Position numbers and translations under genes: made by a program. The notes under the pieces were generated by a model. That model was not told where the DNA came from, did not search any database, and saw nothing but the letters and a program-made list of their open reading frames with translations. Source: Liolophura sinensis (Eukaryota > Mollusca > Polyplacophora > Chitonida > Chitonidae). From it: a stretch of 64,000 nucleotides of DNA. Of the stretch, positions 8,201 to 60,910 are shown piece by piece; the first letter of the stretch is position 1, and each line of letters opens with the position of its first letter. The stretch covers positions 45,619,385 to 45,683,384 of the forward strand of contig NC_088295.1 of NCBI RefSeq assembly GCF_032854445.1, written 5' to 3'.

Positions 8201-11200
8201 TTGTGTAGTCATGTAGGGAGTCAATTTCTCATTCCTGTGGGGTGTCAGTTGTTTAATCATGTGGGGAATCAGTTGTTTAAAAATCATGTGGGAAGTCTGT
8301 TGTTTAACCATGTGAAGAGTTTGTTGGTTAATCATGTAAGGAGTGTGTTGTTAAATCATGTGGGGAGTCATTTGTTTAATCATGTGAGGAGTCTGTTGTT
8401 TAATCATGTGGGGAGTCAGTTGTTTAATCACGTGAGGAGTCATTTGTTTAATCACGTGAGGAATCATTTGATTAATCATGTGTGAAGTCAGTTGTTTAAT
8501 CATGTGAGGAGCCTGTTGTTTAATCATGTGGGAAGTCAGTTGTTTTATCATGTGGGGAGTCATTTGTTTAATCATGTGGGAAGTCAGTTGTTTAATCATG
8601 TGGGAAGTCAGTTGTTTAATACATCACAGATCTATGCACAGGTTGTATGGCAGAAAGGCTGAAGGCTGACCTCTTGGAAAAGGAGCACCTGGTGGATGTT
8701 GTGTGTGGTCCTGATGCATATAAAGATCTACCCAGGCTTCTGTCTGTGACAGCCTCAGGACAAACAGCAAGTAGGACAATCTGGCACTGAATGATTGAAG
8801 GCTATATGTTTTATTGTGTGGTGTAAATCGGTTTAATATATTTTGATTGCTGACCTCGTCACTCTTTCATAAACTTCATGATAATTTCATAAATTCTTCA
8901 CTTCTAAATCCAGTAGACTGTGACATGCACAAAAATGTTACTGGAAATATGATCTGCAAGGCTTGTGAAAGAGTTCTCTATTTTCCTGAAAGAGTAACTT
9001 TTAACAGTTTTAATTTTGTACATCTGATTGAATCATGCACGTGTTTAAAGTCCAAATAAATTGAAACAATCCACAGTTTAAGTCTTTCCTTTCTGACATT
9101 TTTTGTATTCAGTACTTTACATAATTTTGTTTGAAGTTCATAGATTGATTTTAAAGCATGATGTTTATTTACATTTCCAATCACGTTATTTCATGTGACT
9201 TGTTTTATTTGTTGTTTTTAGTAAATGTTCAGCTGTCATTGGAGGAGACCTATGCTGACATTGTTCCTGTGCGGATCAGCGAATCCTCCCCGTCAGCTTT
9301 TGTGTGAGGCATTTTACATACTTTGATATACTATCTGTGACCAGATCTGCCAAGCTTAGGAAGTTAAATGTTCAGTCTCCCTTGAAACTGGAGGAGTACT
9401 GTAATTCTTCAACCTATTCACATGTTTACAAGGTGTTCATTGGAGCATGCTCCAAAGGCATTATTCTGTGGTGACTGGTAAAATTATGCTTTTTGTGAAG
9501 CACTGAAACTGGCCAATTTAGCAAATGTAGTTTTGTCTTAATCAAATTAAAAATGTGCATTAATTACACTGTAAGTTCCTCTTTCATATGCTAAAAGGTG
9601 GAAGAATTAGGGTAGTCTCCCCTTGCTGATATTTTGTATCTGATGTGTCCTCTTTGGCTAAGTGTAATAGGTTTAAAGTATTAATTATCTTCAGTCTGGA
9701 CAATTGTATTTAAAGTTTCATTGATTATTAATGAAAACTGGAGTGAATTAAAATTTTAAGTCTGACTCGTATTTTAGTACACTTTTGAGCGACTGGTTCC
9801 TGTTGATGGCCCCATAGTGTATTGAAAGGGACATGTCGCCAACATTGAAAAAATTGTGCTGTTGTTTTAGACGTCATCTACATTAAGTAGACTTTCAGAT
9901 GTCTACTGATATGTAGCTAACAATCGAATGTTCAGTTTTATCCTGGGTTTCCCTTCAACCATCAACTCATTGTATTTAGAAAGCCTGACTTTTTAGTCAG
10001 TTACCTCCCCTTGTTGTCTAGAGGATGGGAGATGTTCAGCGAACTTGAGATGTCTAACACAGTATTGTGATGTAATTATGCGTTCTAGTGTGTAATTTCA
10101 GTTCTGCAGTACAGTGTTTGGAATTACGAATACTTTATAACGCAATATCGATAGAAAGGAAGATCGTATTTGGTTTACTAGAATTGTAATTCGCTTTCAA
10201 TCTATCGTATTGTTTACATGTGCAATATACAAGTGTCCCTTTAATAGTCCTCCAAGAGATCAAGTCATTCTGGGTTGTTCACAGCACCCGATTTATTTAA
10301 GATAGCTTAAAGATAAAAAGAATGAAAATTAAATTGGTCCCTTGCTCGCATATTCAGCTAAAGTGTTTTTTTTTTTTTGCCAAATCTGAACAGCTTCTGA
10401 CCAACAAAGTGTCACTGGGTTTCCCCCGTGCTCTGTCCGGTTTCCTCCCTTCATAATGTTGGCCGTTGTATAGGTGAAATATTCTTGAGTATGGCGTAAA
10501 ACACTAATCAGGTAAATAAATAAAGCCTCAGATTTGAAATTAACTCCTGGTTTGTTCGCCTACTGTTTAAGGTGAAATGTTTTTCAGCTATTTGGCTAGG
10601 ATTGGTTGTTTGCTCTGGTGTCTTCAGTTTCCTCTTCCATAAACCAAAGTGCCTGACTACCATTATTAGGTATAATGGTAAACAATATGAGGTATGGCAT
10701 TAAATTACCATCAAATAAAGAAGTTAATATGTTCATTAAATCTTTTTCACCATTACACTCTGACCCCTGAAAAGACCAGTATTTCTTACATTTTGTGATG
10801 GTTTTTGTGATATGTGTTTGCCAAGAATGGAAAATTAACAGTGACTGACCTCAGCTTGCTGTTTTTCTGCAGGTCAATAATGCGAGGCTGTGATAACATG
10901 TGCTCCTACTGTATAGTGCCGTTCACTAGAGGGCGGGAGAGGAGTCGACCCGTCACGTCTATACTTGAGGAAATACGATATCTGTCTGATAAGGTAAGGT
11001 GACCAGGTCAGTAATGCAAGGCTGTGATAACATGCGCAGCTACTGTATAGTGCCGTTCACTAGAGGCAGAGAGAGGAGTCGACCCATCACGTCTATACTC
11101 GAGGAAATACAACGTCTACCTGATCAGGAAAAGATGCATTTCAGACTCTCTGATTTCACAGATTCAGACCTAATTCTAACCATCAATCCCATGAGTAAAA

Positions 11201-14200
11201 GAATTCTTGGACTATGAAATTAAACAATAATCAGATAAATAAAAATAAATCTCCTGCATGACCAAGCTAGTCTGGCATGATGGGAAAGTTGGGTGCATGT
11301 TGTTGATAGCATATCTGAGATGTGCAATTGCATTTGTGTTACAGGGTGTTAAAGAGGTCACTTTACTGGGTCAAAATGTCAACAGTTATAGGGATATATC
11401 AGAAACTATTTACCACAGAAACAAGACGACAGTGTTGCCACCTGGATTTAAAACTGTATACAAAGCCAAGTCTGGAGGACAGCGGTTTGCTGATTTGTTG
11501 GACAAGGTTTCTTTGATCGACCCAGAAATGAGGATTCGATTTACATCTCCACATCCTAAAGATTTCCCAGATGAGGTAAACACAGATGTCTTCATTACAA
11601 TATTTGTGATTTGTAATAGGCTGTATTTCAGTACTTCAAAAGCGTTGAAATTTAATACGTTGTTAAGTACATTGTCAGTGATTTTCAGTATGATGTCTGG
11701 TCCTAAAAGCTGAATGCAGTGCTTTCAGTTGAGGTTTTTTTAGTTGACATTTTCATTGTGGAAGATTTTTTGACAATCGTCCAAAGTAAGGTTATATGGA
11801 AATTATGTATCTGTCTTTAATAATTTGTTTTTAGAATGTCACGTCATTGGTGGTGCCTGCCATTCATGTTTAAGAAAATGTAACATTTTTTTATTACCGA
11901 TGCTTTGACACCACAACTTTCGAAAATTCAAGGGGAACAAGCCTTGGTGTTTTTAAGACTATACTAGACTGTCCAGTTTGTATAGTTTATTTTTGGCCAA
12001 AAATAAACTACAAATTGCATACGCATATTCAAACTTTGTAATAGAAAAATGTAAGACAACATGTATTTACTCTTGATAACTTTAAAGTTTCAGAGCAAAG
12101 AGCAAAACTCATTGCAGTTCACTTTAAAAAGAGACTTGTATCAATATTTACTTAACATAAAAATGTACCATATTTGTTGTTACTGAATTTGCCAGGCGAC
12201 CTTACGCAATAATTAACAAAGTCATTTGCATGTTTGTCATGCAGACATCAGCTGAGTATAAGCACCCACTGCCAGGTATGGGTGTTAATTGTGTTCCTGC
12301 ATCTGGTAAGTGGTTGAATGATAGTCTGAGGGGTAAATTTATAGATATCTGACATTAGGAAATGCTGAAGTATGTTAATTCTACATCCCAGTCTGCAAAG
12401 AGCCTATGAGATAGGAAAAATGCATGTCTGTTCTGTATAAAATGACAAGGGATTTGTCTGAACTTACCAACCACAAGGAGTGATAAGCAGTGAATATCTC
12501 CTTTATACACTGGTGTATAACTCCTTTATACATTGGTGTATAACTCCTTTATACGCTGGTGTATAACTCCTTTATACTCTGGTGTATAACTCCTGTATGA
12601 ACCGCTTATCACGGCTCTTGTTCAGAGAAACTGGACTACACAAAAATTAAAACACTTGTGGGCAACAGTAGTGACAGTATCTATGTAACATCAGTTATCA
12701 ACGTCAAATGCACCTATGTTTTGTTATGGTTATAGGTGTTACAGTTGATCCGAGATCGTCCCAATATCTGTAACCAGTTGCACATCCCAGCACAAAGTGG
12801 TAACAGTGAAACACTGAAGGCCATGAGGAGAGGGTACACCAGAGAGGCTTACCTGGACCTTATACAACATATCAGGCACATATTACCAGGTATTCCATCA
12901 AGTGTATTAAATTTGAGGGCCATGAGAAGGGGGTACACCAGAGAGGCTTACCTTGACCTTATACAAGGTATCAGGCACATACTGCATTACCAGGTATTCG
13001 ATCACATGTGTATTAAATTTGAGGGTCATGAGGAGGGGGTACACCTTTTACAACACATCCAAAAACTTTATCATTATAACCAATTGTAAACAAAGTTTGC
13101 TTAAATTGAAAACACATGCATACCTGGTGGTATGATATGAAGGGTGCCATTTTACTGATGAAATAGGGGGCTTGGGTTGTACTATTGGAATATTTAACTT
13201 CTTCAAAATCGTAAAACTGCGACATTTTTGGAATGAAACGTAAATAGATGTGGCTCACCGTGTTAAGTTTAAAGATTTATGATTCACGATCGAGGATTTG
13301 GGACTTTCCCTATGTATAATATATCGAGAGTAGAAGAGGAGACATCAAACGAAAAGTTGTAAAAGGAGTTATTTTTCTCCGTGTCATTGGCTTGGACATG
13401 TCCAAAACAATAACAACACAACCCTAGACATCTACACAGTGACAAGAAGAAGAGAGGGAGAGAGAATACTTACAGTCTTGCTATATTCCTTTCTTTAAAT
13501 TTCAGATTTAAAAACAGTATGTTAAAATAGAAACTAAATGTAGCTTACCATGAATCACTCAGGTAACACGCAGAAGATTGGAATTGTCCACGGTTTGAGA
13601 AGTATTTCTTAATTTCTAATGATGGACTTGGAATTTTGTGCAAATCACTGTGACATTTTTGTGTATTGCATATGCGCACATGAAATGCACAAAATCTGCT
13701 GAATTGTGTATGACTGCAGCTAAGGGTTGCAGAACTTTGTATGTTTGGTATGTGGATATGTTTGTCTGGCAGCAAAGATTGAAATCTTTGTCATGTGACA
13801 TTCATCACATTATGAAAGCTTAAATGTTTTTTTCTCCTATAACAATCATGTTTTCTTATAGCCATCTGTAAACCCAGACATGGCCACAGACAAAAAGATA
13901 ACTTAGGACAGAATATTGAGGTACAGGGTTTTATGCAAATGTTGTGACCAAAGACTTTATAAATGCTACTTGTTGCTGTCTCGTTTACTGCATCTCAACA
14001 CGTAGAGAATAGAACAAGGAAAGAGGACTGGTTGGCCCCAGGGTCAGTATAATGTGTCTGGGTGGGGTGTCATGTCTGGCGTCTTAGACTCACTCTGCCA
14101 CAAAAAGAGAAAAATTGTAAAGTACGATATAAAACTTCATGCATACAGACATACATACATGCAAAAGCTATCTTTCAGATGTGGCCCTATCCAGTGACTT

Positions 14201-17049
14201 TATCGCAGGGTTTTGCGGAGAAACGGAGGAGGCTCACCAAGATACCCTGTCACTAATGAGACAAGTTCAGTACAACTTTGTCTTCTGTTTCCCGTACAGT
14301 ATGAGACAGGTAGGAAATTGTAACATATGTACTGCATGTCCACAATTTACTATAATTACAAGTTTTCACCCTACAGTCAAATGAAAATCAAATCTCAATA
14401 AGCTGCCTCAACGAAAATTGTTCTTTTTTCAGATTTTTGTGTCTTTACGATGATTTTATTCCGCATCTGCTAATCTATCCACTTTTTTTGGAAAGAATAG
14501 AGTGTGAGAGTCTGGTTTCATCAAGATTCTATCTGCTGCGCACTCTTTCATTTGGAAAAATTCAATTGGGTTTGGAAGTTTCTTCATTAAGCATGATGTG
14601 TCTGTCCACTATAATATCGTCAAATATTGCTATGATTCACATTTAATTTAATTGAATTAATGATGGGGATGGCTGTCAGTGGATATCTTGGATATCTTCA
14701 CTCAGACATTTAAAAGTATGTGCATATAAAGCCTGAGCAAGATGGTCAAAATTTCGGAAACCTGACAAACCTCCTGGCTAAGCCGTCACTGAACCAGCAA
14801 GAGCAGGAGTCATGCCTTAGACCGTTATTATTCAGGGACCAGTCAGCCGTGGCAAGGACAAGGGTTTATCTGATTGAGACAGTTTATAGAACTGTGCACT
14901 GTAATGAGTTAAGGTGTAGTGCGTTAAGGTGTAGTGAGTATGTGAAATATTCACATTATGAAAGACACCTAACTTTTCTACAGTATGATTTGTGGAACTC
15001 TTCTTTTAAATGCTTCGCATAGTACTTAAAGTATGCAATACTATTTTTTTAGATTATGTTGAAGTAATTTTATTTATTTATTTATTTGATTGGTGTTTTA
15101 TGCTATACTCAAGAATATTCCACTTTTACTACGGTGGCCAGCATTATGGTGGGAGGAACCAGGCAGAACCGGGGAGAAACCCCTGACCGTTCGCAGGTAG
15201 CTGCAAGACCTTCCCATGTTCGGCCGGAGAGGAAGGCAGCATGACCTGGACTTGATCTCACAGCAACTGCATATGTGTGAATTAATTTTGAGTTGCACAT
15301 AACATTATTTATTTTAAATATATTACCATAAGTGAGCGGTGCTAAAGTAGCAAGCATCTACAAAATGGTTCAGGGAAGGTAACTTATCAGTAGTTGCACT
15401 CAAGGAAGAGGAGATTTTGGAAGCGCATTCGTCGTATATTGAGCCTTGGATGAATTAAATGGAATTTTATCTTAGTATCTTTTTATCTTTAAATACTTAG
15501 TAATGAACAAAGAAAAACATACTTAATTCATTTACAAATTCATTCCTTTGTGTCCAACAATATTTATAACTTCTCACTTGTAACTATGTTTTGTATATCG
15601 GCCACATTGCAAATTGTGTCTGACAAAAAGTTGAAAGTCTATTATTTATTTACAGAATTGCATCCTGATGAGGGTGTTGAAATTCCAGTCATGCTGTCTG
15701 CATTCATGTCTTTCTCAGAAAACCCATGCTTCTCACAGACTGAAGGATGATGTTCCTGTAGAGGTCAAGGCCAGACGCCATCTTGAACTGACCAACGAGT
15801 TCAGATTAATAGCTGAGAGACTTAATCTGTCGCAGATTGGCCAGCAACAGCTTGTCCTTATTGAAGGGGTGAGTTCAGTGTGACATCTCAGGGACAGAAA
15901 TATGATACTGGTACTGTATCAGTTTTTCCAGTGACTTGCAAAACTTATTGGAGATTGGTATAAAATGATAGGAAAAAGTATTTCTGCAGATGGTTACCCT
16001 GTCTGAGAGGTAATGCAGTCCGTCAGGACTGAGGATAAGTCTTCTCACTCAGCAGTTAAAGGGAGATAACAGTTATCACTCAGCAGTTAATGGGAGATAA
16101 CTGTTCTCATTCAGTACATGTAACTGTTCTCACTCACGCTATATACTGTAACCGACCTTGGTTATTTCTGTAACACAGGATAGTAAAAAATCTTCCCAAG
16201 ACCTGGCTGGAAGGAACGATGCAAACACCAAAGTGATTTTGCCTAAGGTGGAGGTGCCTAGTGTTGATGGCCATGACAGTATGCGAGCCTTACAACCAGG
16301 AGACTATGTCGTAGTTCAGGTGAGAGCCCAGAGTTTAGCAGAAACTGACATGGGCAATAGGTCTTTACCCTGTTCACCTGTCCGTGCACATGCATAGAAC
16401 GCATCAATACAGTAGACATACAAAAGCATGTGGCCCTTCATGACTATGCTACAACCATCTTATTCTTAGTTTCCTTCGTTTTCCTTATTTAGCAGTCAGG
16501 AATAAGATAATTTAAGACTAGTTACCTAGTCCGGTTTTGTTACTCTACTTAAGAATAGGTCCAGGGTGTCCTTTTATGAAACAGTTGATTGGACGTGTGC
16601 TTGGCATAACAAATTATCTGTTGCTGTTTAAGATATGAATGTGCACATTGCCAGAGTAAATGTGTTTGATGCAGCGTTATCAGAGATGTTGAAATTTTCT
16701 ACCTGTTTATATAATTATCTATGATATGAATGGTGATTTATTCCTCTTCCATTGTTAACCTCCATGGGAATTTCTGTCAGCAACCTGTGGATGGTCGTGG
16801 GTTTCGTCCGGGCTCTACCCATTTTCCTCCCACCGTAATGCTGTCGTATAAGTGAAATATTCCTGAGTAAGGTGTAAAACACAAATCAAATAAATAAATA
16901 AATATTGTTCACTTCAGGTCAATGCTGCCACCTCTCAGACATTGAAGGGGATTCCCCTGTATTACACGACTCTGCAGGACTTCCACAGTCACTTACCAAT
17001 ATACCAGCCTTGGTATGATGCTACTTCCTGCTCTACAGCTTACGTGTGA
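5284..17049 (+). CDS. CDK5RAP1: CDK5RAP1: mitochondrial tRNA methylthiotransferase
   Basis: Radical-SAM MiaB-type enzyme that turns i6A37 into ms2i6A37 in mitochondrial tRNAs. Twelve exons with matching phases: 5284-5737, 6411-6514, 7518-7659, 8642-8770, 9222-9303, 10873-10993, 11345-11575, 12736-12889, 14179-14309, 15719-15868, 16179-16319, 16918-17049. They give 656 residues (human 601). Seen: N-terminal MTTase cysteines in ETYGCQMN (C159), LITCSIRE (C195) and LGCMAERL (C235). The radical-SAM cluster motif C-x3-C-x2-C is in [10 protein letters not shown] (C310, C314, C317). [29 protein letters not shown] and [14 protein letters not shown] follow, then a C-terminal TRAM region (about 545-650). 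The N-terminal 150 residues are poorly conserved and start MAACRG, consistent with a mitochondrial leader. Odd: exon 6 is duplicated, exon 8 is partly triplicated, and the last exon seeds a tandem repeat. Confidence 0.96.
8175..8625. repeat. 24-bp minisatellite in CDK5RAP1 intron 3
   Basis: About 18-19 tandem copies of a 24-base unit (GTTGTTTAATCATGTGGGGA plus GTCA, with variants). The unit is a multiple of three and free of stops in some frames. It therefore creates spurious repetitive open frames on both strands (plus 8201-8485, minus 8351-8599). It ends just before exon 4 at 8642. Confidence 0.9.
9825..10242. mobile_element. Short inverted-terminal-repeat element (MITE-like)
   Basis: 418-base segment bounded by AAAGGGACA at 9825-9833 and TGTCCCTTT at 10234-10242, with weaker complementarity further in (ACATGTCGCC, CAAGTGTCCC). 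It has no coding content and lies in CDK5RAP1 intron 5. The flanks are TATTG and AATAG, so no clean target duplication is visible and the family is not assigned. Confidence 0.5.
10415..10527 (+). repeat. tRNA-derived SINE, 3' part
   Basis: Tail half of the common SINE in plus orientation (GGTTTCCTCCC, ATATTCTTGAGTATGGCG, then AATCAGGTAAATAAATAAA). It is 5'-truncated and lies in CDK5RAP1 intron 5. Confidence 0.8.
11007..11127 (+). pseudogene. CDK5RAP1: Duplicate of CDK5RAP1 radical-SAM exon 6, degraded
   Basis: A second 121-base copy of exon 6 starts 13 bases after the first ends; the spacer is GTAAGGTGACCAG. It still translates in frame, but the second cluster cysteine is arginine (CDNMRSYC instead of CDNMCSYC). 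The donor GTAAGG after exon 6 has become GAAAAG here. Without a donor and without the 4Fe-4S ligand it cannot replace exon 6, and its inclusion would probably need a cryptic donor further on. It is nonetheless about 90 percent identical, so the duplication is fairly young. Confidence 0.9.
12480..12600. repeat. Short tandem repeat in CDK5RAP1 intron 7
   Basis: About five copies of a 23-base unit (CTCCTTTATACACTGGTGTA plus TAA) with internal dyad symmetry (TATACACTGGTGTATA). Confidence 0.85.
12819..13060 (+). repeat. CDK5RAP1: Partial triplication of CDK5RAP1 exon 8 3' half
   Basis: The segment coding [16 protein letters not shown] at the 3' end of exon 8, with some flanking intron, recurs at 12918 (99 bases later). 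A shorter copy recurs at about 13023. The second copy still reads [20 protein letters not shown]. It lacks the upstream exon half and a proper acceptor, so it is most likely intronic debris. Confidence 0.85.
15066..15270 (-). repeat. tRNA-derived SINE
   Basis: Minus-strand copy with a TTTATT-repeat tail at 15066-15090. The tail region (TTGATTGGTGTTTTATGC) and the middle (CGGCCGGAGAGGAAGGCAGC) are clear. The head is truncated near the B-box region. It lies in CDK5RAP1 intron 9. Confidence 0.88.
16775..16905 (+). repeat. tRNA-derived SINE, 3' part
   Basis: Plus-strand tail half (GTCGTGGGTTTC, TTTTCCTCCCACCGTAATGC, then AAATCAAATAAATAAATAA). It ends 13 bases before the acceptor of the last CDK5RAP1 exon, so the acceptor tract abuts the SINE tail. 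Confidence 0.88.
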
Positions 17050-17380
17050 CACAGACTGCCGGTATGACAGATTGCTGTGTACAGTACAACTCTACAGGAC
17101 TTTTACAGTTCTTTACCTGAATCCCAGCCTTGGTATGATGCTACTTCCTGCTCTACAGCTTACGTGTGACACAGACTGCCGGTATGACAGATTGCTGTGT
17201 ACAGTACAACTCTACAGTTTCACAGTTCTTTACCCGAATCCCAGCCTTGGTACGATGCTGCTTCCTTGCTCTATAGCTTATGTAGAGACACAGATTGACA
17301 TTATTACATTGAAGGACTTTCACCATCATGAAGCAGGACTTCCTGCTCTATAGCTTATCTGTCACACAGACTGCCAAAAT
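16971..17380 (+). repeat. 120-bp tandem repeat seeded by the last CDK5RAP1 exon
   Basis: The unit starts at TCTGCAGGACTTCCACAG (16971), inside the final coding exon, and recurs at 17091 and 17211 with exact 120-base spacing; a degraded fourth partial copy follows. The natural stop (TGA, 17047-17049) lies in the first unit, so the remaining units form the 3' UTR. The last 26 or so codons of the protein are thus part of the repeat. Confidence 0.9.
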
Positions 17381-21579: not shown

Positions 21580-24500
21580 TTATTCTAAGCTCTTCCCTCC
21601 TGCCAGCATTGTCCCCTTCCTGACCCGCAGGTGTAAGGTAGCATTAGGGGTGAGGCCACAGCTTTGTAGGGAGACAGTGTCATCCTCCAGGATCCGGCTA
21701 GGGAATGTAGACATGATGTCATAGGCTGGGGAACCAGGCAATCTGAAACACAGACTCGGTATCAGATACAGGGCTAGTGTATTTTCTATTATAAATACAC
21801 AAGCATATGTTGGAATTGTTACATGATACACTGACTGGATTTCTCATTTCAAGATCTTTGATCGTTGAATTTGAAGGGAAAACTCAACAACATGAGCTGA
21901 ACATACATTTTTTCCAGCACCATGAGTTATTAGTATTCAATATTTTCTAGTGGCAAATGTCTCTGAGCCCAGAATGCAAAACGCTACAGGTATATTTTTT
22001 TCATTAACTGTGTTAAAAGCTGCAGTCAAGAAATTTTCACTTATATGACATGTTTGATGGCAGATAAGTTTATGGGTGGGGTACACCACTGCCCTTCTCC
22101 AGGGTGCCTATATTAATTCTGCATCCAAAGCAGCAAGATCTGGGTTTGGATCAGTCCCAGCAAACCAGCACTTAATCCATCAAAGCTGTTTCCAAATACA
22201 ATAGTACTACCTATGAGTATCTAGGTATCTCCTCAAGTCTGCTACTGTGTCTGTGAACTTCATTTTCAACACAAAGGTTTTCTCCCCTGTTTCAGCTTTG
22301 ATTCTCAGCGTGGTGATATTTCGTGGAGTTGGAGGTCTCTTCTTCTGATCGATTTCCAACCTGTAAAATAATAGTACATTCCACATTTTGAAAATCCAGC
22401 CAAATCTTGTTAACATATTAAAACTTTTCAACCTTCTCTCTAGTTCAACTCCATGCTGGACGGTGTCCAACAATTCTTCAGCATGCTATTCCAGTGAGGC
22501 ACCACTATATTAAAATGTCAACACTGGGAATATTCTTTTAAAAGGAAAAATCCTTGTAATACGGTTGAACAAGTCCTCATGCCCAAGCAAAAAACAAATC
22601 AAACAGGACACAGAAATAATTTACTTTTGTATTGATAAGCTGTTCATTAAAGTATAAACTGAAGAACGCATATTATAATTCGTGTTAAACTACGGTTAAA
22701 CCAGTGCCAGTCACAGAATACACACCGTTTCTTCATGTCCATGACAACTTGTGTTTCTACCACAGTCACATCATTGGCAGCTGAGGATGGCTGAGGGGAA
22801 TAAGAACAATTCATGTACTGACATACATGTATAAAACTGGGAGTGTAGGTCATCTGTTCCCTGACGCCCTATGTAAACTTTGTATGATCTTGCACTGTGC
22901 ACAATATGCTAGAAGATAATGTTAAGACTTTTGAATATAAAGTAATACAATGTTCATGTATTCGCTAATAAGAAATCACACAAAGTGAGAAAACGACAAA
23001 CATGTTTTCATTTCTCTTCAACATTTTAACCATATTTTGCAAAACAAGAATGCATTTTTAATAAGGATTACAATAACTTAGATGGAGAAAGACTTAACTA
23101 TAACTAAATACAACTCATGCATATGTGTGTCTGAAATCTTGCTAACAAACAGCAATTTCAACATTTCTCCTGCTTGTACCCATATATCCTGTCTGAGGGA
23201 CTCCCTGATATCAATCACTCTCCCATCATGGATAACAGATGAGGGCAATAAGCCCAGGTATTGATCCACAAACACCTGTGTAGTGAGGACCTACCTGTAT
23301 GTCCTGTCTGAGGGACTCCCTGATATCAATCACTCTCCCACCATGGATAACAGACGAGGGCAATGAGCCCAGGTATTGATCCACAAACACCTGTGTAGTG
23401 AGGACCTACCTGTATGTCCTGTCTGAGGGACTCCCTGATATCAATCACTCTCCCACCATGGATAACAGACGAGGGTAATGAGCCCAGGTATTGATCGACA
23501 AACACCTGTGTAGTGAGAACCTACCTGTATGTCCTGTCTGAGGGACTCCCTGATATCAATCACTCTCCCACCATGGATAACAGACGAGGGCAATGAGCCC
23601 AGGTATTGATCCACAAACACCTGTGTAGTGAGGACCTACCTGTATGTCCTGTCTGAGGGACTCCCTGATATCAATCACTCTCCCACCATGGATAACAGAC
23701 GAGGGCAATGAGCCCAGGTATTGATCCACAAACACCTGTGTAGTGAGGACCTACCTGTATGTCCTGTCTGAGGGACTCCCTGATATCAATCACTCTCCCA
23801 CCATGGATAACAGACGAGGGCAATGAGCCCAGGTATTGATCCACAAACACCTGTGTAGTGAGGACCTACCTGTATGTCCTGTCTGAGGGACTCCCTGATA
23901 TCAATCACTCTCCCACCATGGATAACAGACGAGGGCAATGAGCCCAGGTATTGATCCACAAACACCTGTGTAGTGAGGACCTACCTGTATGTCCTGTCTG
24001 AGGGACTCCCTGATATCAATCACTCTCCCACCATGGATAACAGACGAGGGCAATGAGCCCAGGTATTGATCCACAAACACCTGTGTAGTGAGGACCTACC
24101 TGTATGTCCTGTCTGAGGGACTCCCTGATATCAATCACTCTCCCACCATGGATAACAGACGAGGGCAATGAGCCCAGGTATTGATCCACAAACACCTGTG
24201 TAGTGAGGACCTACCTGTATGTCCTGTCTGAGGGACTCCCTGATATCAATCACTCTCCCACCATGGATAACAGACGAGGGCAATGAGCCCAGGTATTGAT
24301 CCACAGACACCTGTGTAATGAGAACCTACCTGTATGTCCTGTCTGAGGGACTCCCTGATATCAATCACTCTCCCACCACAGATAACAGACGAGGGTAATG
24401 AGCCCAGGTATTGATCCACAAACACCTGTGTAGTGAGAACCTACCTGTATGTCCTGTCTGAGGGACTCCCTGATATCAATCACTCTCCCACCATGGATAA

Positions 24501-27500
24501 CAGACGAGGGCAATGAGCCCAGGTATTGATCCACAAACACCTGTGTAGTGAGGACCTACCTGTATGTCCTGTCTGAGGGACTCCCTGATATCAATCACTC
24601 TCCCACCATGGATAACAGACGAGGGCAATGAGCCCAGGTATTGATCCACAGACACCTGTGTAATGAGAACCTACCTGTATGTCCTGTCTGAGGGACTCCC
24701 AGATATCAATCACTCTCCCACCACAGATAACAGACAAGGGTAATGAGCCCAGGTATTGATCCACAGACACCTGTGTAGTGAGAACCTACCTGTATGTCCT
24801 GTCTGAGGGACTCCCTGATATCAATCACTCTCCCATCATGGATAACAGACGAGGGCAATGAGCCCAGGTATTGATCCACAGACACCTGTGTAATGAGAAC
24901 CTACCTGTATGTCCTGTCTTAGGGACTCCCTGATATCAATCACTCTCCCATCATGGATAACAGACGAGAACAATGAGCCCAGGTATTGATCCACAGACAC
25001 CTGTGTAATGAGAACCTACCTGTATGTCCTGTCTGAGGGACTCCCTGATATCAATCACTCTCCCACCATGGATAACATACGAGGGTAATGAGCCCAGGAA
25101 TTGATCCACAGACACCTGTGTAATGAGAACCTACCTGTATGTCCTGTCTGAGGGACTCCCTGATATCAATCACTCTCCCATCATGGATAACAGACGAGGG
25201 CAATGAGCCCAGGTATTGATCCACAGACACCTGTGTAGTGAGAACCTACCTGTATGTCCTGTCTGAGGGACTCCCTGATATCAATCACTCTCCCACCATG
25301 GATAACAGACGAGGGCAATGAGCCCAGGTATTGATCCACAGACACCTGTGTAATGAGAACCTACCTGTATGTCCTGTCTGAGGGACTCCCTGATATCAAT
25401 CACTCTCCCATCATGGATAACAGACGAGGGCAATGAGCCCAGGTATTGATCCACAGACACCTGTGTAATGAGAACCTACCTGTATGTCCTGTCTGAGGGA
25501 CTCCCTGATATCAATCACTCTCCCATCATGGATAACAGACGAGGGCAATGAGCCCAGGTATTGATCCACAGACACCTGTGTAATGAGAACCTACCTCTAT
25601 GTCCTGTCTGAGGGACTCCCTGATATCAATCACTCTCCCACCACAGATAACAGACGAGGGTAATGAGCCCAGGTATTGATCCACAGACACCTGTGTAATG
25701 AGAACCTACCTGTATGTCCTGTCTGAGGGACTCCCTGATATCAATCACTCTCCCATCATGGATAACAGACGAGGGCAATGAGCCCAGGTATTGATCCACA
25801 GACACCTGTGTAATGAGCACCTACCTGTATGTCCTGTCTGAGGGACTCCCTGATATCAATCACTTTCCCACCACAGATAACAGACGAGGGTAATGAGCCC
25901 AGGTATTGATCCACAGACACCTGTGTAATGAGAACTTACCTGTATGTCCTGTCTGAGGGACTCCCTGATATCAATCACTCTCCCACCACGGATAACAGAT
26001 GAGGGTAATGAGCCCAGGAATTGATCAACAGACTGCTTGGGTCCTGTCAGTAAATTAACATCTATAACTTCACAGATTACAATTTTTGGGGTTTATACAC
26101 AACTTCCAGTGAATAAGCAGTCATTAACCCTCTACTATATATTATCCACTGTAAATTGTAAACTTTCAGCAAATTATATTTAAAATAATCAACACAATTT
26201 TAATGATTACTACCTATGTTATAAATTATAAAGGATCATCACTGATTCATGTATACCTTATACACGAATACAAAAACTATAAAATGAAAATTTATTCATT
26301 TGTTATTCAGACAATTTCACGAGAAGAGACCTGGAATCTATTCCACAGACCAATCACATGCTCAGTAGATTGTTACTACCAGGGCAAAAAGTGGGGAGGA
26401 CATGCATGAGATGCTGCCATGGTAGTTATGATCAACTTTAGACCACTATTGTTCTGTTGATCAGAGCACTGGCTGTAGACGTAGTACGTTTGTATTGTAT
26501 GTGGGTGCGGATTTGCATGAAAGTGTACAACGTGTACAATGTTTTGTTATACATGTATGTGCTGCTCATATTATTTCATATCACAGGACTTTTAATACCA
26601 GTAGAGCTCTGGGCCCACTTTCACAAAACTGTGCAAGTCACATTTCTTGTAAGTTTTTGGTAAAAGATGTTGTTTACATTATAGTGCCATAAGGCAACGT
26701 CATTTATGAGAACAGTTACACAACTGATTTACGAAGTTGTGTGAAAGAGGGCGCAGTTACTGAACAGTTACAAAACTGATTTACGAAGTTGTGTGAAAGA
26801 GGGCGCAGTTACTGAACAGTTACACAACTGATTTACGAAGTTGTGTGAAAGAGGGCGCAGTTACTGAACAGTTACACAACTGATTTACGAAGTTGTGTGA
26901 AAGAGGGCGCAGTTACTGAACAGTTACACAACTGATTTACGAAGTTGTGTGGAAGAGGGCGCAGTTACTGAACAGTTACACAACTGATTTACGAAGTTGT
27001 GTGAAAGAGGGCGCAGTTACTGAACATAATACATAACTGCTGCAAAAGGAGAAAAGGAAAAGAGAGAAAAGAGTAGAATTTTAAAGCATAAAAAACTAAA
27101 CCAGTGCACACCCCCCACCACAACCACTCACCTGGTAACTCTGTCTCTTCCACCAGCCCCTGGGTGTTCTCTGCACTGGCTGTCTGTGTCCCCAGGTTTA
27201 GATTACTGGGTATCAGCCGTGAGGGTTTGGTCTCCCCACCCAGCAGTTGTCCTGACCCCTTAAACACATCATCATTCCGCTTGTCTCTGAAGAAGACTTC
27301 TCTCTTGTCTGTTATCTGGGCAAAGGAACATGATGAGTATAATGATTATGTGAATGTGTGGCTCATTATAAAGGAACATAACTGTTTCCAAACAACCCAG
27401 GTATGCAGCCATACATGAATATATATATATATATAAACAAACTGTTGCTGTAGAATTCAAGCATGTCCTTTTACAATATCCAGCTGCCATCAGGAAGATT

Positions 27501-30500
27501 TCTAACAATATATAAAACAATATACATGTAATATTTTCCCACATTTAGATTGAAGCTGACACTCACTGATTTCAGATGACACAAGTGCATAATGTATTAA
27601 ACTGAACTGTTCATCTTTTAATAATTGGCACCATCCTTTAACATATTCCTATAGACAAACTGTACAAAAATGGCGACAACAAAAAAAAAAACATAACTTT
27701 GTTGAAAATGGACAACAAAACTTGAGCTTGATCTCACAGTAGCTTGAGGTGGTGAAGCTGTGTACAATTTTTAATTCAGAATAAGAAACTGTTTTGCAGT
27801 GTAGACCTGGATTTCATGCCTTTGACTCTATAGACCTGATATGTTTCAGGGAATTAGCCTCTAAAATGTGAGGACCATCGTCCCTGAAGTTGGAGAGTCT
27901 TTGATACGCAAGTTTCAATTTTTCTAACTCTCAGAGGCTGTGTATTATAAGTATCTATATATATATATATGTATATACCTGTAAGGGGATGCCCTCAGGG
28001 TACCTGTTCTGAAGCTCTGTGGGAAAGTAACCATCCATCAGGTCTTTCACACACTGCTGGGTGGCGGGGTCCGTGAAGGGGCGGAATGGACCAGCAAACA
28101 GGACAATACCATTAGCATACAGGACTAATGGTACAGAGTCAGGAATCTGAAATAAACAGAAAAATCATCACATATCACTTTAATAGTTATTTGTATTATC
28201 TTATTTTGACAGGACTACGTTCATGACTTTATACACTCATTGAATGCATTACTTGTTTAGTAATGAGACAGCAGCAGAACAGCCTACAGGACTTATACTG
28301 TATATATAATTACTGTATGTTTATAGAACATAAAACTACATGTATTTAGTATATATATTCAAAAGCAAAACAAGATTGCAGGTGAACTAAATATCATTTC
28401 TACAGCAGATATAGGGAAATTGGCAATCTGGTTTAATACTGGGCCAGCAACTGCCAAAAGGCGTGAGATAAAATGCATATGCATGATAACTGGTCGTAGC
28501 CCAGACAATAGGCCATACCTATTTATGCTGTACTAAGTAGACATAGGGAAAATGGCATGGCTGTAGCAATGGACAAATGTGAGGCATGACAAATGGTCAC
28601 ATCCGTATCTCTATCTATGTATTTTGACTTTTGACTTTGGATAACAAGTGTCCATGATTATACAAGAAAATTATATGCAAGAATTATGCCAGCATTACAG
28701 TGAGAGGAAACTGCGCACAGCCCCGGGGAAACCCATGACCATCCACAGGCAACTGGCAGACTTTCCCATGTACGGCTGGAGATGATTAAGCCATCATAAG
28801 CTGGACTTTAACTCACAGGGACCGCACTGGTGGGAGGCTCCTGGGTCATTCTGGCGTGCTGGTGTACTAATCCCCTCAGCCACCGAAAAAAACAGTTATT
28901 AGTAGAACACATGAAAAGCCTACTCTCATGCCTGTGTTAACTGACAACCAGTGTCCCACCTTAAGTCTTGCCCCGTCTGTAGTCCTCTGTACCCTTGCCA
29001 CTCCCTCCCCGGCCAACACGTTCAGTTCCTGCACATTCTTTATCAGCTGATTGTAGTCCACCTTCAGCTCAGTTGTGGGCACAGATGCTCCTGTTATATT
29101 TGTACAAATTTGTGAAGGTAAAAATATCTTGAAATTTTATTTATTTTTCTCCTTCATAAACAAGTATGAATTTGACTCCACCAACCCTCCTGAACTTTCA
29201 TTCCATACATGGGAGGATCTTTAATATTTGAGTATATCAAAGCTAGAAATTTTGAATAAATTTGACATGAAAGCTCCAATTACCAAATATACATTTAAAA
29301 TGTAGTGAACCCTTACGAAATTATGCTGAAGTACTAGTATACTGCAGGCTTTCTTCAAAAACTCTAACAAAATATAAACCTGCAGGATAACATTTATATG
29401 ATTCGGTAATACTGCCACAAGTCGGTAGCTTTTTATGCATGCTTCTGTCATACTTCCAGAACTTTGAATGATTTGCCCTATACCGCTGTCATACTTCCAG
29501 CATTTTGAATGATTTGCCCTATACTGCTGTCATACTTCCAGCATTTACAATGATTTGCCCTATACCGCTGTCATACTTCCAGCATTTTGAATGATTTGCC
29601 CTATACTGCTGTCATACTTCCAGCACTTAGAATGATTTACCCTACACCCATCATACTTCCAGCATTTAGAATGATTTGCCCTACACTGCTGTCATATTTC
29701 CAGCATTTCAAATGATTTGCCCTACACTGCAGCCTTACTTCCAGCACTTACAATGATTTGCCCTTCTATTGCTGTCATATTTCCAGCAGTTAGAATGATT
29801 TGCTCTATACTGCTGTCATACTTCCAGCACTTAGAATGATTTGTTCTACACCGCTGTCATAACTTCCAGCACTTAGAATGATTTGCCCTACACTGCTGTC
29901 ATATTTCCAGCATTTCGAATGATTTGCCCTATACTGCTGTCTTACTTCCAGCACTTAGAATGATTTGCCCTACACTGCTGTCAGACTTCCAGCACTTAGA
30001 ATGATTTGCCCTATATTGCTGTCAGACTTCCAGCACTTAGGATGATTTGCCCTATATTGCTGTCATACTTTCAGCACTTAGAATGATTTGCCCTATATTG
30101 CTGTCACACTTCTAGAACTTAGAATGATTGCCCTATACTGCTGTCATACTTCCAGCACTTAGAATGATTTGCCCTATACCGAGTACTGTTGTTATACTTC
30201 CAGCACTTAGAATTATTGCCCTACACTGCTGTCATACTTCCAGCACTTACAATGACTTGCCCTATATCTAGTACTGCTGTTATACTTCCAGAACTTGAAA
30301 TGTTTTATGTATATTCCACTGTTGGACTGCCAGCACTTTGAGTAATTTTCTCTACAGTGTTGTTATAATGCCAGAACTTCAAATCATCTCAAGTGCTTTC
30401 CAAAAATGATGATACTGCAAAAATACTTCCAGCAAAATTTTCCAATGGTTACATAAAACCACCATTATGATTTGTAACTTGGAGCGGCAGAGGTCTGGTA

Positions 30501-33500
30501 GCTAGAGGTGATTAACTGTCTTTCAATTGCTAGAATGCACAAGGTCTTGGACAACAAATTTGTAGATTACCGCGCTCTCACTGCTTGTGGAGCTTAACTG
30601 AACCTAACAATTTATTAGATCAAATTTCCCTCAACAACCCCCATGAACTTCCATTCTAAACATGGAGGATATTTAATATTTGAGTATATCAAAGCTAGAA
30701 ATTTCAATTAAATTTGACATGAAAGCTCCAATTACCAAAAGTACCTTTCAAATGTGATGAAGGCTCCAGTTTATTTACATATGACATACAATGAAAGCTC
30801 CCATTGCATCTGACAAGAAGTGACTGCTCACATCAAACAGTGCTACTGCTTATGTGGACAAGTGACAGGCAGAATATACCATATTGAATTTACCTGGTCT
30901 CCATATGCCCTGGTTACTTTTAGTGGACTGAGTATCGTCTTCATCGCTGTCGGCCTGATAGACATCTGAGTCATCGTCAGCAGACTCACCCACCCACACC
31001 ATCCCATAGTCGGCCAAGAATTGCTACAGATACACAATTTAAGAATGAGATGCAAACATAAATACAAACATACACCAGACTGACCGATCTGTGTTTAAGG
31101 CCTTACTTAAGAATTGCCCAGTTATAGAATGGCAGCCAGTTTTCAGGATGCAGGAAACCAGTATGACCAAAGTAAACCACCAACCTTTGTCAAATTACTG
31201 ACAGAGTTTCACACCAGGGAAGCTACAATGCACATGCACGTATATGCATATGTAAATATGGCCAGCCAACCTTAAGACAATCGATAATCACACTGCAGCA
31301 AATCACAGCACACTGACAGCAGGCTAACAAAATACTGGCAGAAGGCAGGTCTGTTTGATATGCTGTCCTCAGAGAAACTAAGTGATATACATGACGGTAG
31401 AAGCCATAGTGTGAAAGAAACCTAGTATACACATGCCCTGAGCACACTGGTAGAATTGATAATTGAAAATTTCAAGACTGTTATTATTTCTGAGTGTAAT
31501 TTCCCAGTCCTAAATTGTTTCTGACATTCATTCACCATGTAAATTGAAATTTATTCAGTTTATCTTGTCTTCAATACCACATTGTACATGTACATTCAAG
31601 ATCTGTTTTCATTACATCTGCTACTTCGTGATTCGTGTTACATTTCTGTATGAACAGACATGATAAAATTTGCCATAGTAGGATAATTGTGCAATATTTA
31701 CACAGAAATGAACTTATTGCTAAATAATGCGACTAAACGCACTTTGTAGAAAATCAATACCAATGACACTGTTAAGATAACTTCCCTCTTACATCATACC
31801 TCCATTTCATGAATCTGCTGCTGGAGAAGCAAGCACTTTTTTTCTAAATGCTGTGTTTTTCCAGGACTGTCCGATTCTGAAATGATGTAAGACAAACTAT
31901 ACGTGCATGTCATTATATGTGTGCTATAATACTTTGTTGCAGTTACAGCCATTTTGAAAACATGATGTAAGATGATTTTAATGCAGAAAGTCATGCTAAA
32001 TGCAGCATTAATTTAGGCACATTACATTTTTTTTCTTTTTCTGGCCAATGTACACACTTCCAGGACATATTTTACTTACCTCTGGCTTTATTCAAAATTT
32101 TCACCTTGTCTTCTAATATTCGAATTTTCTTATCCTGCAGATACATAAAATCCATCATAAATGATTTGTTTGTTTGCTTAGGAGTTTAATGCTGTTTTCA
32201 AAATTATTTCAGATTTATAATACAGAAAGCAGTAGAGCCTTGGTAAAGTCTTGGCTGAGAATTAGTTTGTGCCAGACTGACTTTTTAAGGAAATTACATG
32301 CACTATATCAACATACAGGGAGCTTGTTTATAGAATGTGGCTACCGGCCACTTGGGCCCTGCTAATTTTGTACAACATCTGAGCTGGTATTTGCCTACTT
32401 TTTCGAATGCTCCTATTTTACTCCTAATTTTCTATCAGGTATTGAACCCGATATTCTCATTAATCAGATCAAGCCTAACACTTACACGTGTACATCTGGG
32501 TGATAGTCTCCCATCACAAAAAACTCACAATTTGTGACAATTCATCTGGTACATGTAAATTATATTTATTTATTTATTTATTTGATTGGTGTTTTACGCC
32601 GTACTCAAGAATAGTTCACTTATACGACGGCGGCCAGCATTATGGTGAGTGGAAACCGGGCAGAGCCCAGGGGAAACTGACGACCATCCGCAGGTTGAAG
32701 AGGAAGCCAGCATGAGCTGGACTTGAACTCACAGCGACCGCATTGGTGAGAGACTCTTGGGTCATTACGCTGCGCTAGTGGAGGCTCCCTGTAACTTATA
32801 CGCAATCTGTTTCTTCTAGTTATTATTTTAACTTGTTTATGGGCAATCTATTCATTGTTATTGTACATGGAATTACCTTATCACAGATATCTTTGGTCTG
32901 ATATTGAACTTTCTGCTCCAGCTGGGCCAATCTAGCCATCATGATGGACATCAGCTCATGGTCAGACGTTTCTATCAAGCATGAATGATACACGGTTAAT
33001 CTGTTTTCTTGGCAGGGTTATGTCGCATTGACCTTCAAATGGATGCTTCCAAATGGTCAAACGCAGAAAAAATCCAAAAAGTCTACAGTTTATTTTGGGT
33101 CCTGAAAATTACCTCGTCTGTAAGAATTCTTTTTTTTTTTTTTTTTTTGATTTCATAGTAATGTTTCTTGCATTGTGATTGTACTTTCTTCTTCATCAAT
33201 ATAGACAAAAAAGATATTCTTAATGTAACCATGTTAATGCAAAATGAAAAATACATGCATATTAACCACCATATTTAAAAATCACTATTCTTCACTTAAT
33301 CAGAATATAATCTTTCACTTTAATGACAGATTAAAACTTTAGTTTATTACTGGGATTCAACAACAATAAAGTACATGTATTTCAATCAGCCTTCCACATA
33401 CTTGTGCTTGTAGTTGATCTTGGACTTGTCTGGACACTATTAGAGTTGCTTCCCCTGGACACATTTGATCGCCCACTTGATGCATCTGAAGGTTTTGGCA

Positions 33501-35413
33501 ACCCACCAAGAAAAGGGTCCCTCATGCCTCTGGGGCGAGAGGATGCCATGCTGCTTGTGATCTCGTCCAGGAGTTTGTGTTCATCATCTGTGAAAATAAA
33601 ACATAGGTACATGCCAAATTAGTATTCACCTCCATTGACACAAGAAGACACATGTATGTCAAATCAATTAAGCTCAACTCATATTTCACTAGACAGCAAG
33701 TCCAAACTGTAACCAACATTTGTTTGTCATTAAAATGAGGTACATCCCCATGGATATGAAATATAAATTTGTTAAAGGAGAAGAAAATGATGCCAAAATA
33801 AGATGAAAGAGCATCAAAACTTATTTGCAAATATGATCTTTAATATTTTTTTGGATTTTTTTTTTTTCAAGAGAAAAGGGTGTTTGAAAATATTTTTGTA
33901 TGGTGGGTATTTGGGACCAACTTTTGGTATTTATCGTTGTTGCATAACAATGTTCTAAGTAAAGATGTGATGCTTGTCTCATAAATTTATTTGAATGAAA
34001 ATTTGTTGTTTATATCGAAACATATGCATTTAACCTAAATTATGATAATATTTATGAACATATTAAAAATATAAATATGATCCAAATTGAGATTTAATGC
34101 ATCTGCTAGCTGAAAAGAACAAATTCTAGTGCAAAAATATTTATTAAACCTGTGTTACATCCTCATTTATGACATTATCAAACAAAGACTATAAATACCA
34201 ATAGGTGGTCCCAAATACCCACCATACAACTATTATTTTCAAGTGTCTTTTCTCCTTGAGGAGAAATCGGAAAAAATATTCAGATCATTCAGACCACATT
34301 CAGGAATAAATTTTTGCACTCTTTCATCTGAACTTTATGTCATTTTTATATTTTCTCCACCTTTAAGGAAATGAAAACAAAGACAAACTGTTTCTTTAAT
34401 TTCCTGTAATAAAATAAAAAACACTTTTATCATTTATGGTTATATAGCCATCTAAAGCTACATCCATCTTCACTCTGATTTACACCAAACCAAGATTGGA
34501 TAAACAAACTGAAGACACACACTGAAATACACAGTCGTTCATATTCCATACATGCCTCAGAGTATTGTTTGGACCTAGCTAGGTCAGTTATACCCTGAGG
34601 CATGTCCAGGACTATGAACAAAGGTTCATGATGTTAATTACCTGTATATCCTGGTCTAAAGGGAACTAATGGCTTCTTAACATCATTGGAACTGCAAAAT
34701 GAAATACTGAATTACAGTTTACAAATACATTTGCAGGGCTTCCGTGACCAAGTGGTTAACGTGCTCATAAAGCCTCTCACCGATGCCATCACAGTATGTT
34801 GCTCTGCATGAGGTCAAGTCCAGCTCATGTTGGTTTCCCCAACCTGAGGATGGTTGTGGGTTTTCCCTGGGCTATGTCTGGCTTCCTCCCACCATAACGC
34901 CACTGAGGAATAAGTGAAATATTCTTAATTGAGCACCGCCAGTTAAACACCAATCAAATAAATAAATAAATAAATGATGATAAATACTGCAGGTTTGCAG
35001 TTTCATACATTGTAACTACAAAAAAAATGTTGTCATATTCAAACATATGTGCTATTAATTAATAATGACACTGAATCAGTTATGTCAATGATTCAAGTTA
35101 GGCCTCGCCACGATATGGCTGAGATATTGCCGATGTGGCGTTAAGCCATAATCATTCATTCAATCATTCATTCAACGTAGGCCTATGTACCATATTGTAA
35201 TTTGCACATTAAACTTAAAACTTACCACTACGTTGTGGCTTAAACATATTGAAATTCAAGACATTACTTCAAATTCACTCAATAAGTGGTAAGCACCAAT
35301 GACGAAAATAACAACACATCGTGGATGTACTGTCTACCATACCCCATCGCCAAATGTCCCAGGCCCAATGCTGATTTGTGGTTCTTTTTCAAACTTGACA
35401 GGGGTGAACTCAT
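21580..35413 (-). CDS. UBXN11: UBXN11: UBX domain protein 11 (socius-like)
   Basis: UBX-domain protein; the vertebrate homologue is reported to bind Rnd GTPases and act on the actin cytoskeleton. Exons (minus): 35413-35343, 34691-34642, 33587-33402, 32971-32877, 32134-32080, 31876-31800, 31023-30894, 29090-28960, 28146-27979, 27315-27132, 26043-25940, 22790-22726, 22360-22211, 21742-21580. All phases agree, giving 542 residues (human 520). Seen: MSSPLSSLKKN start as in human; Ser-rich stretch; coiled coil (about 103-178); QFLADYGMVWVGES; SEP domain (about 266-330; VPLVLYANGIVLFAGPF); SVDQFLGSLPSSVIRGG linker; UBX domain (about 452-530). The canonical UBX loop FPR reads FPS, so p97 binding is uncertain. 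The 3.1 kb intron after the linker exon contains 24 further copies of that exon. Confidence 0.94.
23180..26043 (-). repeat. UBXN11: 25-copy exon array in UBXN11 (115-bp unit)
   Basis: The exon at 26043-25940 (phase 1 in, phase 0 out, donor GTAAGT) is followed, in gene direction, by 24 copies spaced exactly 115 bases apart. Their exon 3' ends are at 25825, 25710, 25595 and so on to 23295 and 23180. Each copy is a 96-base open cassette (VxVDQYLGSLPSSV... RQDIQ) preceded by ACACAG and followed by GTAGGT. The spacer is only 19 bases (GTAGGTYCTCAYTACACAG). Because 115 is not a multiple of three, read-through shifts frame and hits stops; only spliced copies stay in frame. Copies 16-23 (gene 3' side) are almost identical and read VFV, and copies 1-11 are more varied and read VSV. 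The last copy (23275-23180) has a weak donor (GTACAA). Confidence 0.95.
26710..27021. repeat. 52-bp tandem repeat with internal hairpin, UBXN11 intron
   Basis: Six units at 26710, 26762, 26814, 26866, 26918 and 26970, nearly identical, with a broken seventh. Each contains ACACAAC and GTTGTGT separated by about 11 bases, so every unit can form a small hairpin. It lies between the exons at 27132 and 26043. Confidence 0.92.
28688..28886 (-). repeat. tRNA-derived SINE lacking the AAATA tail
   Basis: Minus-strand copy carrying the middle (CCCCGGGGAAACCCATGACC) and the head side (GGGAGGCTCCTGGGTCATTC). The tail is missing. It lies next to the UBXN11 exon 29090-28960. Confidence 0.8.
29444..30300. 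repeat. 41-bp minisatellite in UBXN11 intron 7
   Basis: About 20 imperfect copies of a 41-base unit (GCTGTCATACTTCCAGCAC, then TTAGAATGATTTGCCCTATA). Some units carry short insertions such as GAGTACT near 30180 and 30270, and it decays towards 30400. It is flanked at 29220-29280 and 30661-30725 by two copies of another segment (TTTAATATTTGAGTATATCA, then AAAGCTAGAAATTT), so the array may sit inside a larger direct duplication. Confidence 0.9.
31085..31405. repeat. Dispersed repeat, second family (copy 1)
   Basis: Shares blocks with 40680-40880: GGAGGAAACCAG-like, CCAACCTTTGTCAAATTACT, then ACTGGCAGAAGGCAGGT. The block order is the same in both places. It differs from the common SINE and is not assigned to a class. 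It lies in UBXN11 intron 6. Confidence 0.6.
32558..32795 (-). repeat. tRNA-derived SINE, nearly complete
   Basis: Tail TATTTATTTATTTATT at 32562-32585, TTGATTGGTGTTTTACGCC, a middle with a small deletion, and head side CAGCGACCGCATTGGTGAGA. In the sense direction it shows a B-box-like GAGTTCAAGTCC. It lies in UBXN11 intron 4. Confidence 0.92.
33776..34362. mobile_element. piggyBac-like MITE with long terminal inverted repeats
   Basis: 587-base element bounded on both sides by TTAA (33772-33775 and 34363-34366), the target site of piggyBac-type transposases. Terminal arms of about 160-180 bases are imperfect inverted repeats. The ends are AGGAGAAGAAAAT and, reversed, AGGTGGAGAAAAT. Inner blocks include ATGAAAGAGC and a long near-perfect match (TATGGTGGGTATTTGGGACC). 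It has no coding capacity and lies in UBXN11 intron 2. Confidence 0.82.
34734..34976 (+). repeat. tRNA-derived SINE, full length but diverged
   Basis: Plus-strand copy. The head (GCTTCCGTGACCAAGTGGTT, A-box-like) is followed by GAGGTCAAGTCCAGCTC (B-box-like). The middle is GTGGGTTTTCCC and the tail is ACACCAATCAAATAAATAAA. It lies in UBXN11 intron 1, beside exon 2. Confidence 0.9.
35098..35176 (+). repeat. SINE tail fragment, third family
   Basis: GATATGGCTGAGATATTGCC, then ATGTGGCGTTAAGCC, ending in CATTCATT repeats. Tails of this kind are common in molluscan SINEs. The head is missing. Confidence 0.55.
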
Positions 35414-60349: not shown

Positions 60350-60910
60350 ATGGGTTGTGTACAGTCCAGAAGGAAGAACAGAAGGGTGGCTCCATTGTCC
60401 ACGGAGACAAGGCCGTCGAGCCGGGAAGTCACCATGGCCCAGACCATTTATTTACCTCTGTCAATGCAGCCTGCTCTCGAGGAGCCCCGCAGGAGGAAGA
60501 CTGAAGAAGAGGTTCTGAAAGAGCTGAAGGAAGAAGGTCTCTTGAAATGTGAGACACTACGAGAAAAAAAGAATGGCAGTGTTGCTTTCTACGTATCTTT
60601 GGATGGCAATCCCTATCCATCGGGAAAACCTCGGCTTTTGGAGCCGATTGAGCTGAAACAAGAGCGAGAGAAGATCAGGGAAAATCTTAACAACAGGATG
60701 AACAAGGCGACGATGCTCAGAAGACAGAAGTTGTCTAGAGTGAAGAGGAAAGCTCGGATTGTTTCGGCAAAACAACGCCAAGCCGTGGTGAAGAAACAAA
60801 AAGCCGATGAGGAGCACCGAAGGATCCACAAGGAGCGACTTGAGGAGAAGATGGAGCGGGCCTCCAGGAACCGTCGGTCTAGGCTGGCGAGTAATGGACA
60901 GATGTGTTAG
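60350..60910 (+). CDS. STMND1-like (stathmin-domain) protein, copy B
   Basis: Second copy of the 186-residue gene, 4,429 bases downstream in the same orientation, single exon, fully open. It differs from copy A at six residues (V30A, D114N, I136V, M144V, Q174R and D181N, numbering approximate). All are conservative or in the charged helix; the MGCVQS acylation signal and the whole N-terminal half apart from V30A are kept. Synonymous changes are few, so the duplication is recent. A polyadenylation signal AATAAA lies at 61690-61695. Same functional inference and caveats as copy A. Confidence 0.72.
   Translation: MGCVQSRRKNRRVAPLSTETRPSSREVTMAQTIYLPLSMQPALEEPRRRKTEEEVLKELKEEGLLKCETLREKKNGSVAFYVSLDGNPYPSGKPRLLEPIELKQEREKIRENLNNRMNKATMLRRQKLSRVKRKARIVSAKQRQAVVKKQKADEEHRRIHKERLEEKMERASRNRRSRLASNGQMC

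Follow-up and report, generated by a model that had tools for sequence, protein, structure and literature searches.

An array of exon-like repeats in UBXN11

When an exon has been copied many times in tandem, and the copies keep its reading frame and splice dinucleotides, does the gene that carries them make use of the copies? This question is raised by a locus in the chiton Liolophura sinensis, in which a gene encoding UBX domain-containing protein 11 (UBXN11) contains an array of 115-bp repeats built from part of one of its own exons. We analyzed a window of 64,000 nucleotides (assembly GCF_032854445.1, contig NC_088295.1, positions 45,619,385 to 45,683,384); the gene occupies positions 21580..35413 of this window on the minus strand. 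The published chiton assembly first carried the species name L. japonica, which has since been changed to L. sinensis (PMC12441733). Judged from its sequence, the array is very probably a neutral intragenic minisatellite of exon-derived pseudoexons, inert and removed with the intron in which it lies.

Tandem Repeats Finder (TRF) placed the array at 23183..26033 (minus strand) and reported 24.8 copies, a period of 115, 97% matches, 0% indels, and a score of 5198. When the minus strand was cut every 115 bases from position 26033, each of units 0-23 was free of gaps and departed from the consensus at 0-7 positions; unit 24 is cut short and has 22 differences. The units are head-to-tail and near-identical (24.8 x 115 bp), as in a minisatellite. 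Each unit consists of the last 91 nt of an exon, here called exon H, and 24 nt of the following intron. Exon H (25940..26043, minus strand; 104 nt) lies after the SEP domain, runs from phase 1 to phase 0, and ends at the donor CAG/GTAAGT.

Downstream of exon H are 24 exon-like cassettes of 96 nt at a spacing of 115 nt (23180..25920, minus strand; cassette k starts at 25920-115(k-1)), which we read as pseudoexons. All 24 are open in phase 0, and all are preceded by ACACAG; 23 are followed by GTAGGT (22 as CAG/GTAGGT, one as GAG/GTAGGT), and the last is followed by GTACAA. Exon H differs from each cassette at 4-9 of 91 bases. The 24 gaps between the exon-like copies are all 19 nt long, with the sequence GTAGGTTCTCATTACACAG or a near variant; the first gap (25921..25939, minus strand) has the form GT...AG and is probably too short for splicing. 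The next constitutive exon, exon I (22726..22790, minus strand), starts in phase 0. A first-pass annotation of the window had described 25 copies at an exact 115-bp period with no indel, open 96-base cassettes with AG acceptors and GTAGGT donors in 23 of 24, a source exon running from phase 1 to 0, cassettes running from 0 to 0, and a phase 0 start at 22790; our analysis agrees on each of these points.

The host gene

In our 12-exon model of the gene, the splice sites are GT-AG and the phases agree from exon to exon; the model yields a 501-aa product in which exon H encodes residues 342-376. Two further 5' exons start at 35413 and near 34690; from ATG to stop the gene has 14 coding exons, and the array contributes only exon H to them. 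Pfam identified a SEP domain at residues 231-303 (E 8.7e-17) and a UBX domain at residues 412-486 (E 4.1e-8) of the 501-aa model. The top match among those listed, “UBX domain-containing protein 11-like [Liolophura sinensis]” (P0001), has 100% identity over the whole 501-aa query, and the next named matches among those listed include Haliotis (57%), Gigantopelta (55%), and Lingula (54%). Using tblastn, P0001 alone aligned along 35413-21583 of the minus strand (residues 1-542). The protein carries a SEP domain and then a C-terminal UBX domain, and its closest listed relatives are named UBX domain-containing protein 11. The host gene of the array is therefore an intact UBXN11, and the two domains together with the P0001 match bear out the gene name given in the first-pass annotation.

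Two other tandem arrays, at 26710-27026 (52 bp x 6.1) and 29445-30266 (41 bp x 19.9), are present in UBXN11; both are intronic and lie outside the model exons.

Splicing capacity of the cassettes

The intron between exons H and I (22791..25939, minus strand) is 3149 nt long, and its splicing would remove the entire array downstream of exon H. P0001 reads ...RQDIQPSSAAND..., which corresponds to exon H joined directly to exon I with all cassettes skipped. The style of its name suggests that P0001 comes from NCBI automatic annotation, which as a rule draws on RNA-seq.

If the cassettes were used, some transcripts would include at least one non-adjacent cassette, each adding 32 residues between SEP and UBX, and the 19-nt gap would act as a steric rule against neighbors. 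The phase 0-0 cassettes, the GTAGGT donors in 23 of 24 and the AG acceptors in all 24, weak to middling in strength, are compatible with such use, as are the 134 nt between every second cassette, a spliceable size. Nevertheless, P0001 is the sole L. sinensis protein in the list of 120 matches, and it lacks cassettes; taken together with the evidence on coding constraint given below, this leads us to consider cassette use very unlikely. Slightly less likely still is a live exon ladder, in which non-adjacent cassettes, one or several at a time, enter a minority of UBXN11 transcripts while the 19-nt gaps bar neighbors; if this were true, the spacing between SEP and UBX would vary in 32-residue steps, and the copy number of the array would set the range.

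Joining exon H to cassette 1, or any cassette k to k+1, appears very unlikely because the gaps are only 19 nt. In one human study, the validated introns measure 37-65 nt, and the cassette gaps fall below that range. The earlier suggestion of unlimited cassette addition is therefore unsupported. Replacement fares no better in sequence terms, as joining the preceding exon (exon G) to cassette 2, the cassette tried, in place of exon H causes a frameshift and then stops; only addition after exon H preserves the frame.

A regulatory role was also considered, in which 23 near-consensus 5' splice sites lying beyond the real donor would bind U1 and either tune splicing or make a non-productive isoform. 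The recurrence of GTAGGT would fit this role, and so would the consequence of passing the native donor: the next donor adds 115 nt, and read-through to donor 1, 2, or 3 meets an in-frame TGA. However, recent homogenization already predicts identical donors, and the native GTAAGT donor is both nearer to consensus and first in line. We regard a regulatory array as improbable, to the same degree as the exon ladder.

Several observations weigh against the reading of the cassettes as inert pseudoexons. First, splicing of a 19-nt intron, although very unlikely, is not an absolute impossibility: a study of RNA-seq-predicted human introns of 10-70 nt, some of them canonical and with non-canonical ends commoner as length drops, bins candidates down to 10 nt (PMC5435141). 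Four short human introns were confirmed by reverse transcription PCR in the same study (PMC5435141), and ciliate introns of ~25 bp are mentioned in one abstract. Second, cassettes separated by at least one other copy are 134 nt or more apart, a distance over which joining is possible. Third, the cassette acceptors are weak but not clearly dead. We built a small acceptor matrix from 21 acceptors of UBXN11 and of CDK5RAP1, the neighboring plus-strand gene (two further CDK5RAP1 acceptors, near 14166 and 16170, are not among the 21). Cassette acceptors score 1.9-5.2, and real ones score 0.2-11.7 with a median of 6.2 (leave-one-out, n=21); 10 of the 21 real acceptors score under the best cassette, and among 578 other intronic AGs, only 6.7% score at least as high as the median of the cassettes and 4.3% as high as the best of them. 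Based on these scores, a flat claim that the cassettes are unusable is not warranted. Fourth, near-uniform donors have been kept, and no stop codon has arisen in any cassette. Lastly, P0001, in which the direct H-I joint is seen, is one database protein and forms a cluster of one sequence.

An argument from the branch site was set aside. For the cassette acceptors, the distance to the next AG upstream is 14-15 nt, compared with a median of 31 nt for the 21 real acceptors; however, 3 of those 21 have an upstream AG at ≤12 nt, so this spacing does not exclude cassette use.

Coding constraint and comparison with relatives

We counted derived changes in cassettes 1-23 relative to a consensus with CGT at codon 16, excluding cassette 24 (truncated and with more changes) and the differences between exon H and the cassettes. 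The 15 changes comprise 12 nonsynonymous, 3 synonymous, and 0 stop changes. In a neutral simulation that placed the observed 9 transitions and 6 transversions at random (20,000 runs), the expectation was 10.1 nonsynonymous, 4.3 synonymous, and 0.56 stop changes, and zero stops occurred in 56% of runs; the open frames therefore say little. Variable sites are about equally dense in the cassettes (15/96) and in gaps 2-24 (2/19). The cassettes thus show no sign of coding selection, although so few changes are still compatible with weak selection.

The 24 copies are not 24 observations, because one duplication set the phase and gave each copy 91 of its 96 open bases. The first-pass annotation had called the phases telling; a single duplication, with a 1-in-3 chance of this phase, explains all of the copies. 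Its description of a splice-competent exon array is accurate where it concerns the tandem copies, their splice-like dinucleotides, and their compatible phases, but finds no support as to the joining of neighbors across 19-nt gaps.

For comparison with other species, we aligned 65 relatives, hand-picked from the 120 homologues that were listed out of 287; nearly all of the 65 come from named sources. The cassettes are altered at residues conserved in these relatives, which argues against their use. Phe occupies position 391 in 64 of 65 relatives, but 23 of 24 cassettes have Tyr there; at position 401, 63 of 65 relatives carry Lys or Arg (Gln in the other 2), and the cassettes carry His (20) or Cys (4). 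The exon H codon CGT and the cassette codons CAT and TGT differ as expected for the products of CpG loss on either strand. Pro396 and Arg409 are invariant in all 65 relatives, and one cassette each has Phe and Trp at these positions. The remaining cassette positions fall within the range of the relatives (e.g., Asp at 402).

The segment motif does not occur twice in any of the 65 aligned relatives; a loose form of it was found once in 59 and was absent from 6. The cassettes encode 10 peptide types, and the three commonest, which differ by one or two residues, account for 17 of 24. Use of such near-identical cassettes would yield little diversity, a further point against cassette use.

Growth of the array

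Differences between units grow with separation, from a mean of ~3 for neighbors (2.4 for units three apart) to 5-7 at the far end. Cassettes 16-20 and their following gaps are identical, and diversity per site is 0.035 in copies 1-11 vs 0.015 in copies 12-23. This pattern is as for stepwise expansion with local homogenization. The CGT codon and the GTAAGT donor of exon H are found in no cassette; therefore, array sequence has not replaced that of the exon at those sites.

Based on these data, we infer the following history. A tandem duplication would have captured the final 91 nt of exon H together with the 5' splice site and 24 intronic nt, but neither the native acceptor nor the branch region. 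Through unequal exchange or slippage, the segment would then have grown to 24.8 copies, with the latest growth in the 3' half. Of these copies, the first would remain the working exon because it alone has the native acceptor and the GTAAGT donor, and the remaining copies, presumably absent from mature RNA, would sit in the 3149-nt intron and be spliced out with it. The array would be tolerated because the real acceptor and the first donor are intact, and its copies would look exon-like because they were copied from an exon, not because they are used.

The 24-nt intronic part of the unit was compared with two candidate sources, and both were rejected. Its 18-nt core aligns to the native exon H acceptor as TTAC(TG)ACAGG, but the score was matched in 23% of 1000 shuffles; for the downstream flank, shuffles matched the score in 73%. 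The core has no match within 4 mismatches elsewhere in the window outside 23100-26050.

An error of assembly, in the array itself or in its copy number, is the least probable of the alternatives considered. Tandem repeats are error-prone, and the description of the published assembly gives a HiFi coverage of 14x; however, the same source gives a mean HiFi read of 8,347 bp, almost three times the array length (PMC11068029). In addition, the copies bear distinct, ordered variants, and three smaller duplications are found nearby.

Exon-overlapping repeats in CDK5RAP1 and the rest of the window

These three duplications overlap exons of the neighboring plus-strand gene, which we identified as CDK5RAP1 using tblastn with a human sequence. 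At 10870..11128 (plus strand), TRF reported a duplication (134 bp x 1.9, with a 13-nt gap) of the exon encoding the radical-SAM CxxxCxxC motif. Copy 1 (10873-10993) encodes CDNMCSYC, and copy 2, which differs at 16 of 121 bases, encodes CDNMRSYC (Cys to Arg) and lacks a GT donor. At 12815..13045 (plus strand), a segment running from the 3' portion of an exon into the beginning of the intron is repeated (99 bp x 2.2), and at 16969..17294 (plus strand), the C-terminal coding end, the stop codon, and the following bases are repeated (120 bp x 2.7). Because these duplications overlap exons, and one has a second copy that has lost both a motif Cys and its donor, we counted them in favor of the pseudoexon reading of the UBXN11 cassettes.

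TRF reported four arrays in the window with a period of ≥90 bp, and every one of them overlaps coding exon sequence; the next longest period, 88 bp, is a doubled 41-bp unit and is intronic. The probability that four such units placed at random would all overlap exons by ≥50 bp is ~0.0002, and among near-tandem BLAST pairs (11 clusters, of which 7 have an offset ≥90 and no short unit), 4 of 7 overlap exons (p ~0.005); these values involve a 90-bp cut chosen after seeing the list and rough exon maps of the other genes, and we treat the overlap as a lead. In all four arrays, the intact copy is first in transcription order. From this we infer that duplications sparing the native acceptor and first donor are harmless and survive, and that others are removed. 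The UBXN11 array and the three CDK5RAP1 cases raise the question of whether short tandem duplications in this chiton are biased to exon 3' ends or whether only those sparing the native acceptor and first donor survive.

Other parts of the window contain additional coding sequences. Near-identical long open frames (MxQTIYLPLSMQPALEEP...) at 55912-56478 and 60332-60907 (plus strand) probably reflect a recent gene duplication and are stathmin-like by reading alone. Coding stretches at 48257-50579 and 2226-3401 (minus strand) resemble tubulin tyrosine ligase-like and YrdC-type genes, respectively, and these names are likewise by reading.

The UBXN11 array is a clean case of exon-like traits (open frame, phase, and splice dinucleotides) arising in bulk from one duplication with no visible selection. 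It serves as a caution for gene finders and for the interpretation of exon-like features from sequence alone. A literature search, with subscription papers outside its scope, found no earlier description of it.

Comparison with known systems

The first-pass annotation named Dscam-type arrays as the nearest comparison. Like Dscam-type clusters, the UBXN11 locus has many tandem exon-like copies between constitutive exons; however, the likeness breaks down in four respects, namely replaceability, spacing, diversification, and coding constraint. The UBXN11 copies cannot replace the constitutive exon, their gaps are all 19 nt and probably below spliceable length, and the copies are 97% alike, with little diversification and no sign of coding constraint. 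The gap length bears more on family likeness than on cassette use, because introns that are too short can alone enforce exclusion: one source lists insufficient intron length among the causes of mutually exclusive splicing (PMC6071210).

Another parallel is exon 4 of earthworm metallothionein, where there is tandem exon duplication with unused copies, and minisatellite-length repeats occur in the same gene family (PMC12783039). The UBXN11 array differs from that case in having 24 extra copies at a tight 115-bp period.

The array shares with intragenic minisatellites, or variable number tandem repeats, its head-to-tail, indel-free units, the greater similarity of the units in one half, and the presence of other tandem arrays in the window. 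It differs from them in that the unit combines the 3' end of a working exon with a splice donor, so that each copy mimics an exon. A period of 115 bp is long for the minisatellite class. The array is real and striking, most likely a neutral minisatellite made of exon-derived pseudoexons, and it is new as a case and ordinary in kind.

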